Below, piece after piece: positions 40,801-46,744 of a DNA stretch of 64,000 nucleotides. Every line of letters begins with the position of its first letter. Position 1 is the first letter of the stretch. The DNA is from Branchiostoma floridae (Eukaryota; Chordata; Leptocardii; Amphioxiformes; Branchiostomatidae). The notes beneath the pieces are model-generated. The model searched no databases. It worked only from the letters and a program-made list of their open reading frames with translations, and was not told where the DNA came from. Made by a program: the position numbers and the translations under genes. The stretch is taken from contig NC_049985.1 in assembly GCF_000003815.2 (NCBI RefSeq), positions 25,767,104 through 25,831,103 of the forward strand, written 5' to 3'.

Positions 40801-43800
40801 CTGCAGACTCGTCGTCCGATCGATTTTCGCGCAATGTGACAGGGGTATTAGGACGGGACGTTAAGCCATGGTCCACTGTTCATTGTGCTTGTCGTAAAGA
40901 GAGGGGAAATTCTCTGGTACAATGAACTTGTAAATACTGTACATAGCGTCTGTCCTTTCTGTCATGACCAGTGCAAGACTAGCTCTTCGGTGAGCTAAAA
41001 CTGGATCGCGATAACTTTGATTGATTGATTGATTGATTGACTCCCAATCCCCAGGAGCGGGAACAGTATTCAGTAGTCCTGGGTACCACAGAGGACTGGC
41101 TGTACGAAGACGGGGAGGACCAGCCCAAACAGGTGTACCTGGACAAGATCGCCGAGCTCAAGAAGACGGGAGAACCCGTCAGGGCCAGATATAAGGAGGA
41201 GCTGGAGCGGCCGGCTGCCTTCGAGGACCTGGGCAAGACTCTACAACAGTACAGGAAAGTCTTGGACTTGTACACACAGAAGGTAAGACTCTACAACAGT
41301 ACAGGAAAGTCTTGGACTTGTACACACAGAAGGTAAGAATCTACAACAGTACAGGAAAGTCTTGGACTTGTACACACAGAAGGTAAGACTCTACAACAGT
41401 ACAGGAAGGTCTTGGACTTGTATGCACAGAAGGTAAGACTCTACAACAGTACAGGAAAGTCTTGGACTTGTATGCACAGAAGGTAAGACTCTACAACAGT
41501 ACAGGAAGGTCTTGGACTTGTATGCACAGAAGGTAAGACTCTACAACAGTACAGGAAAGTCTTGGACTTGTACACACAGAAGGTAAGACTCTACAACAAC
41601 AGTACAGGAAAGTCTTGGACTTGTACGCACAGAAGGTAAGACTCTACAACAGTACAAGAAAGTCTTGGACTTGTACGCACAGAAGGTAAGACTCTACAAC
41701 AGTACAGGAAAGTCTTGGACTTGTACGCACAGAAGGTAAGACTCTACAACAACAGTACAGGAAAGTCTTGGACTTGTACGCACAGAAGGTAAGACTCTAC
41801 AACAGTACAGGAAAGTCTTGGACTTGTACACACAGAAGGTAAGACTCTACAACAGTACAGGAAAGTCTTGGACTTGTATGCACAGAAGGTAAGACTCTAC
41901 AACAGTACAGGAAAGTCTTGGACTTGTACACACAGAAGGTAAGACTACAACAGTACAGGAAAGTCTTGGACTTGTACGCACAGAAGGTAAGACTCTACAA
42001 CAGTACAGGAAAGTCTTGGACTTGTACACACAGAAGGTAAGACTCTACAACAGTACAGGAAAGTCTTGGACTTGTACACACAGAAGGTAAGACTCTACAA
42101 CAACAGTACAGGAAAGTCTTGGACTTGTACGCACAGAAGGTAAGACTCTACAACAGTACAGGAAAGTCTTGGACTTGTACGCACAGAAGGTAAGACTCTA
42201 CAACAACAGTACAGGAAAGTCTTGGACTTGTACGCACAGAAGGTAAGACTCTACAACAGTACAGGAAAGTCTTGGACTTGTATGCACAGAAGGTAAGACT
42301 CTACAACAGTACAGGAAAGTCTTGGACTTGTACGCACAGAAGGTAAGACTCTACAACAACAGTACAGGAAAGTCTTGGACTTGTACGCACAGAAGGTAAG
42401 ACTCTACAACAGTACAGGAAAGTCTTGGACTTGTACACACAGAAGGTAAGACTCTACAACAGTACAGGAAAGTCTTGGACTTGTACACACAGAAGGTAAG
42501 ACACTACAACTTACAGTACAGGGAAGTCTTGGACTTGTACACACAGAAGGTAAGACTCTACAGCAGTACAGGAAAGTCTTGGACTTGTACACACAGAAGG
42601 TAAGACTCTACAACAGTACAGGAAAGTCTTGGACTTGTACACGCAGAAGGTAAGACTCTACAACAGTACAGGAAAGTCTTGGACTTGTACGCACAGAAGT
42701 GTACGCCCAGAACGTAAGACTCTACAACAGTACAGGAAAGTCTTGGACTTGTACACACAGAAGGTAAGACTCTACAACAACAGTACAGGAAAGTCTTGGA
42801 CTTGTACGCACAGAAGGTAAGACTCTACAACAACAGTACAGGAAAGTCTTGGACTTGTACGCACAGAAGGTAAGACTCTACAACAGTACAGGAAAGTCTT
42901 GGACTTGTACACACAGAAGGTAAGACTCTACAACAGTACAGGAAAGTCTTGGACTTGTACGCACAGAAGGTAAGACTCTACAACAGTACAGGAAAGTCTT
43001 GGACTTGTACACACAGAAGGTAAGACTCTACAACAGTACAGGAAAGTCTTGGACTTGTACACACAGAAGGTAAGACTCTACAACAGTACAGGAAAGTCTT
43101 GGACTTGTACACACAGAAGGTAAGACTCTACAACAGTACAGGAAAGTCTTGGACTTGTACACACAGAAGGAAAGACTCTACAACAGTACAGGAAAGTCTT
43201 GGACTTGTACACGCAGAAGGTAAGACTCTACAACAGTACAGGAAAGTCTTGGACTTGTACACACCGAAGGTAAGACTCTACAACAGTACTGGAAGGTCTT
43301 GGACTTGTATGCACAGAAGGTAAGACTACAACAGTACAGGAAAGTCTTGGACTTGTACACACAGAAGGTAAGACTAACAACAGTACAGGAAAGTCTTGGA
43401 CTTGTACGCACAGAAGGTAAGACTCTACAACAGTACAGGAAAGTCTTGGACTTGTACACACAGAAGGTAAGACACTACAACTTACAGTACAGGGAAGTCT
43501 TGGACTTGTACACACAGAAGGTAAGACTCTACAGCAGTACAGGAAAGTCTTGGACTTGTACACACAGAAGGTAAGACTCTACAACAGTACAGGAAAGTCT
43601 TGGACTTGTACACGCAGAAGGTAAGACTCTACAACAGTACAGGAAAGTCTTGGACTTGTACGCACAGAAGTGTACGCACAGAAGGTAAGACTCTACAACA
43701 GTACAGGAAAGTCTTGGACTTGTACGCACAGACTTGTACGCACAGAAGGTAAGACTCTACAACAACAGTACAGGAAAGTCTTGGACTTGTACGCACAGAA

Positions 43801-46744: not shown

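Follow-up and report, generated by a model that had tools for sequence, protein, structure and literature searches.

Lancelet genes contain so-called mirages, tandem duplications of exon-intron boundaries, which are described in two reports available to us as excerpts (PMC3087553, PMC3902484). According to the excerpt of the first, mirages occur at both 5' and 3' boundaries, Adh3 data together with RT-PCR suggest that regular splicing is undisturbed by them, and boundary duplication is proposed as a route to new introns (PMC3087553). The same text gives 6 and 3 units for two haplotypes of the globin gene BflGb6 and cites somatic instability for the Adh3 mirage (PMC3087553), and the excerpt of the second report adds PGBD5 and troponin C to the mirage genes (PMC3902484).

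Our analysis covered a window of 64,000 nucleotides of Branchiostoma floridae DNA, in which the exon-intron boundary at exon 17 of a chaperone gene has been duplicated in tandem. As in the mirages of BflGb6, BflGb9, Adh3, PGBD5 and troponin C, so far as the excerpts describe them, the duplication runs across an exon-intron boundary in a lancelet gene; the mirage traits found in the exon 17 array are a boundary-spanning unit, a cephalochordate host gene and tandem copies of minisatellite length. The mirages of the excerpts and the arrays of the chaperone gene are also alike in that donor and acceptor sides both occur and many copies keep their splice signals. The array, called remarkable in the original prediction, cannot be taken as unprecedented, because mirages already are tandem exon-intron boundary duplications (PMC3087553, PMC3902484, excerpts). 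By comparison with the excerpts, the exon 17 array is a large further case of a mirage minisatellite, which stands out by its copy number relative to the counts given there and by the occurrence of three arrays in one gene, unlike the printed mirage cases compared. The units of BflGb6 are 150-160 bp long (6 and 3 of them) and BflGb9 has a 157-bp duplicate, whereas the exon 17 array extends over 3.4 kb, with 67 copies of about 50 bp each; this unit length falls inside the range of the Adh3 mirage (10-72 bp). Regular splicing is reported in the excerpts for globins, Adh and troponin C, whereas the chaperone arrays are known from DNA and database proteins. No published mirage in this gene was found in a literature search that took in the names HSPA4 and Hsp110 but few subscription papers and not the first report on Adh3.

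Two other systems share some of these properties. In the RdRp intron gain of potato, the duplicated segment also crosses an intron-exon border with its splice signals, but the new intron is spliced there, whereas the exon 17 copies sit in an old intron and the database proteins are without a new splice (PMC4974935, excerpt). The intronic VNTR of human ABCA7 is likewise an intronic tandem repeat in a protein-coding gene, but has a reported effect on splicing and disease, and none is known for the exon 17 array (PMC5954066, excerpt).

The exon model of the gene was built by fitting exons bounded by AG and GT to a B. floridae database protein (P0001, isoform X2). The 19 exons in the window translate into 888 aa identical to this heat shock 70 kDa protein 4-like protein, which bears out the earlier identification of a chaperone gene, and the model places the end of exon 17 at 41282, in agreement with the exon number given before. 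A search with a partial join of the exon translations listed 120 proteins, the first 11 of which are named Branchiostoma; P0001 was the best match among them. A Pfam scan with exon 17 alone returned 0 families. The features of the gene and of the exon 17 array are as follows:

13818-46744, + strand: coding exons 1-19 of the heat shock 70 kDa protein 4-like gene (HSPA4/HSP110 family); the 888-aa translation matches P0001 exactly
41055-41282, + strand: exon 17, 228 nt, ending in phase 0 (exon model)
41235-41282, + strand: last 48 nt of exon 17, which form the one coding copy in the array (anchoring, exon model)
41283-41288, + strand: real intron 17 donor, AAG/GTAAGA (exon model, donor scores)
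41283-44684, + strand: intronic part of the array, 66 further exon-end copies, 63 of them followed by an intact AAGGTAAGA donor
42438-42706, + strand: 269-bp block with an exact second copy starting at 43409 (lag 971), an internal duplication of several units
44676-44684, + strand: partial last copy AAGACTCTA, 9 bp, a candidate seed repeat together with 41235-41243
45556-45717, + strand: exon 18, 162 nt, partner of the real donor (exon model)

Anchoring on TTGGACTTG located 67 copies of the unit (the final 48 nt of exon 17 together with the donor) within 41235-44684, and Tandem Repeats Finder reported an array with a 50-bp period over 41235-44681, split into overlapping rows. The unit spans the boundary, comprising these 48 nt and the GT, and the first copy is the real exon end; the original prediction of a genuine junction copied in tandem was correct on both counts. 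Its figure of about 67 donors fits the exon-end copies, but the donors are slightly fewer, with 65 GTAAGA motifs by the anchored count and 64 perfect AAG/GTAAGA junctions (AAGGTAAGA), the real donor counted in. The three imperfect donors follow copies 29, 38 and 63. Successive GTAAGA motifs are separated by 50 nt in 40 of 64 cases and by 53 nt in 13 of 64, and the array fills 3402 of the 4273 bp of intron 17 (41283-45555). Chance is excluded by an exact self-match of 269 bp at lag 971, the longest for lags 45-2999. Outside the array, AAGGTAAGA is absent from the + strand and present once on the - strand. When the first 100 bp of the array were searched against the B. floridae genome (513,431,437 bases, 431 contigs), with the best candidates scored, no copy was found outside the array, all 32 matches lying inside it.

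To determine the outcome of each donor, all 64 GGTAAG donors were joined in silico to exon 18 and translated. Donor 1 alone yields the normal 888 aa; the other 63 truncate the protein, including 20 that keep a multiple of 3 nt and yet truncate. Donor 2 gives 775 aa, with a stop 19 nt into exon 18, and donors 3-64 (62/62) give 769 aa, with a stop 17 codons beyond the end of exon 17 and upstream of the exon 17-18 junction. The earlier claims that only the first donor yields the protein, that one extra unit shifts the frame and that read-through stops within 18 codons all agree with these products. The suggested role in length-variable regulation of the C-terminal domain is not supported: every one of the 63 alternative donors truncates, and none of the 12 proteins aligned (11 from lancelets and 1 from an acorn worm) has an in-frame insertion at the exon 17-18 junction. 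In a leave-one-out profile, the real exon 17 donor scores 10.2, tied with that of exon 3 as the best of the 18 donors of the gene. Since the stop lies in or before exon 18 for all 63 downstream donors, the established rule of nonsense-mediated decay predicts that each of these mRNAs would be destroyed.

The database proteins are consistent with use of the first donor, to the extent that gene models, which may be predictions, can indicate it. P0001, which itself may be a predicted model, uses the exon-side site at all three arrays of the gene. Another B. floridae gene model (P0010, C3ZZW9_BRAFL) runs into the exon 17 array and ends in the read-through peptide, and it also carries a piece resembling a shifted-frame reading of the exon 11 array described below. 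A gene predictor was misled here, and the model should not be taken as evidence that cells are misled. Among the 120 proteins listed, P0010 is the only one with the read-through peptide, and a protein search found no small predicted proteins composed of array read-through.

The same gene has two further junction arrays, one of the donor type and one of the acceptor type:

33198-33331, + strand: exon 11, whose 3' end is repeated in the second donor-type array (exon model)
33288-34466, + strand: donor-type array at exon 11, 16 ATTG/GT junctions with spacings of 67, 71 or 82 bp
25379-25501, + strand: exon 4 (exon model)
25062-25424, + strand: acceptor-type array at exon 4, 74-bp units with 5 TCCCAG acceptors, the last one real

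The first intron bases of the exon 11 junctions run from 33332 to 34398, and a partial copy follows the last junction. Ten of these 16 donors read GTACGT, 4 GTCCGT, 1 GTACAT and 1 GTATGT; one of them gives the normal protein, two give longer open frames (939 and 990 aa) and 13 give truncated products. At exon 4 the last, exon-side acceptor alone leads to 888 aa and the other four truncate, so that the exon-side site is the real one in all three arrays. The real exon 4 has ATC (Ile) at a codon that is GTC (Val) in its four decoy copies; Val matches the B. belcheri and B. lanceolatum proteins, and the decoys may retain the older codon. Of the 6 arrays of at least 300 bp within the gene, 3 have one end, and one only, inside a coding exon. 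When arrays were placed at random, three or more of this kind arose in 4.6% of 50,000 trials (4.4% of 20,000 with placements over a whole exon disallowed). As the size cut was picked after the arrays had been seen and dropped smaller arrays, this is weak evidence for an enrichment of junction arrays in this gene.

Why does the gene then tolerate 63 additional perfect donors? We hypothesize, with a probability of about 0.88, that the exon 17 array is a neutral mirage minisatellite that expanded through unequal exchange or slippage and has no function of its own, the gene tolerating it because splicing takes place at the exon-side site. It may have started as a tandem duplication between short direct repeats AAGACTCTA, located 48 nt before the exon end and at intron positions +3 to +11, although the 9-bp partial copy could instead be a by-product of array growth. 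Unequal exchange or slippage would then have added single units and multi-unit blocks. Exon definition and the advantage of being transcribed first both favor the exon-side donor; here donor 1 is the earliest to be transcribed and bounds the shortest of the possible exons (228 nt), and the exon-side site would win. Transcripts spliced at later donors would acquire an early stop and be removed by nonsense-mediated decay. The other two arrays of the gene, with the real site exon-side in each, support this reading. One published rule complicates it. Of two competing donors SRSF1 favors the intron-proximal and hnRNP A1 the intron-distal one (PMC5585400, excerpt). The SRSF1 preference would choose the wrong donor in the exon 17 array, so cells may have to favor the first donor actively.

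Turnover within the array is supported by the 269-bp block and by the diversity of the 66 units between anchors, which have 27 distinct sequences, one occurring 15 times. In this single haplotype, the block is an indirect sign of length instability. No run of more than 4 whole units is repeated (longest run in 2000 shuffles: mean, 2.7; maximum, 6), and the order of unit types alone does not demonstrate block duplication. At one codon, 37 of the 66 aligned units have Thr (ACN) and the other 29 have Ala (GCN). The proteins of B. floridae and B. belcheri differ by the same Thr/Ala exchange, which is also the sole difference between two B. lanceolatum isoforms (P0006 and P0008, alignment column 862) listed on a contig of equal length, a pair that could reflect a related array or a copied exon end in that species.

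There is a slim chance that the array is instead a regulatory decoy, in which array length or splicing factors set the use of downstream donors and the resulting decay-prone mRNAs tune chaperone output, perhaps under heat stress. Such a role would suit the early stops of all 63 alternative donors, placed where decay is expected, and the perfect donor of 63 of the 66 intronic copies, identical to one of the two best of the gene. However, homogenization alone explains the near-identity of the units, and extra constraint on the donor columns of the array was not significant in a column-wise test, 2 of 9 donor columns being variable versus 20 of 41 elsewhere (Fisher test, p = 0.27). Counted by cells with insertions left out, the donor is better kept (2 changes in 594 versus 90 in 2706 elsewhere), but a single column accounts for 29 of the 90 changes, and the units do not evolve as independent samples. 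The decoy reading also has to contend with the confinement of the read-through peptide to one gene model (P0010) among the 120 listed proteins and with the exon 11 and exon 4 arrays, which look alike without evident common regulatory logic. We give the same small weight to a length-variable splicing rheostat, in which equal donors would compete, the losers would go to decay and array length or heat-dependent factors would set the output, combined with gene conversion that rewrites exon codons.

Tandem arrays are often mis-sized in assemblies, and the true locus might have one or few units. This is very improbable, since P0010, with its read-through ending and its piece like the exon 11 array, implies at least one extra unit in its source sequence, and since the 27 different unit sequences, together with agreement of at most 20% of the units at every unit lag between 1 and 39, argue against an artefact.

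It is harder still to credit that AG/GT pairs in the array act as splice sites, giving rise to small exons (intron birth) or to stepwise removal of the intron (recursive splicing). Boundary duplication has been proposed as a route to new introns and one case is reported in potato (PMC3087553, PMC4974935, excerpts). The B. lanceolatum isoforms that differ by T/A alone would also be compatible with such use, as would the 127 of 402 array AG dinucleotides that score at least as high as the weakest real acceptor, the best two (42520 and 43491) reaching 6.4 versus a median of 6.3 for the 18 real acceptors. However, the acceptor profile was built on only these 18 acceptors and separates poorly, and an extra in-frame piece at the junction is missing from all 12 aligned proteins. 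As for the recursive-splicing-like zone of the original prediction, AG/GT is present, but the AGs immediately preceding most internal GTs have a mean pyrimidine content of 0.50 (maximum, 0.56) compared with 0.73 in the real acceptors; since the weakest of these has 0.56, the low content speaks only weakly against recursive splicing. Hardly more believable is a U1 snRNP platform or sink, in which the 64 strong donors would gather U1 and shield the long intron from premature cleavage at two AATAAA motifs (45020 and 45301, about 340 and 620 bp past the array), because these two motifs, looked for in this one intron, are weak evidence, selection on the donors is not significant, and 64 sites on the transcripts of one gene are a small number beside the roughly one million U1 particles of a nucleus; the sink had been suggested in the original prediction.

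Most studies of how one of several identical donors is chosen have used two competing sites. Here a single natural intron has 64 identical strong donors, one of which gives the protein, and two other junctions of the gene add 16 donor copies and 5 acceptor copies. The chaperone locus is a natural test of exon-side versus intron-proximal rules, of the first-transcribed advantage and of exon-length limits. For gene prediction, the P0010 model, truncated by the exon 17 array, serves as a warning.

We surveyed 39 other loci of the B. floridae genome, comprising all 9 globin matches and 30 of 129 kinase matches. An array with a period of at least 10 overlaps the match at 2 of the 39, a count that is not a frequency, as most of the best-scoring kinase matches are long single exons and a match may stop short of the exon ends. 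Both arrays are of the acceptor type. The one at a globin exon (L017, 954-1601) has 158-bp units and 4 acceptor copies, the last of which opens the real exon; it is probably the published BflGb6 mirage and serves as a positive control. The one at a protein kinase exon (L047, 1182-1550) has 147-bp units and three acceptor copies and is not mentioned in the excerpts of the mirage reports (PMC3087553, PMC3902484).

Other features of the window were seen in passing. Within an intron of the chaperone gene, a reading frame at 28788-29048 is like an insert in a B. belcheri gene model (P0011) and is probably a dispersed element mistaken for an exon in that model. A reading frame at 49454-49672 resembles part of an acyl-CoA synthetase. 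Tandem Repeats Finder reported neighboring tandem arrays with 163- and 162-bp units at 54042-54627 and 54936-55505, about 26 repeats of a 27-bp unit at 59385-60106, and a 321-base run, mostly A, at 61423-61743.
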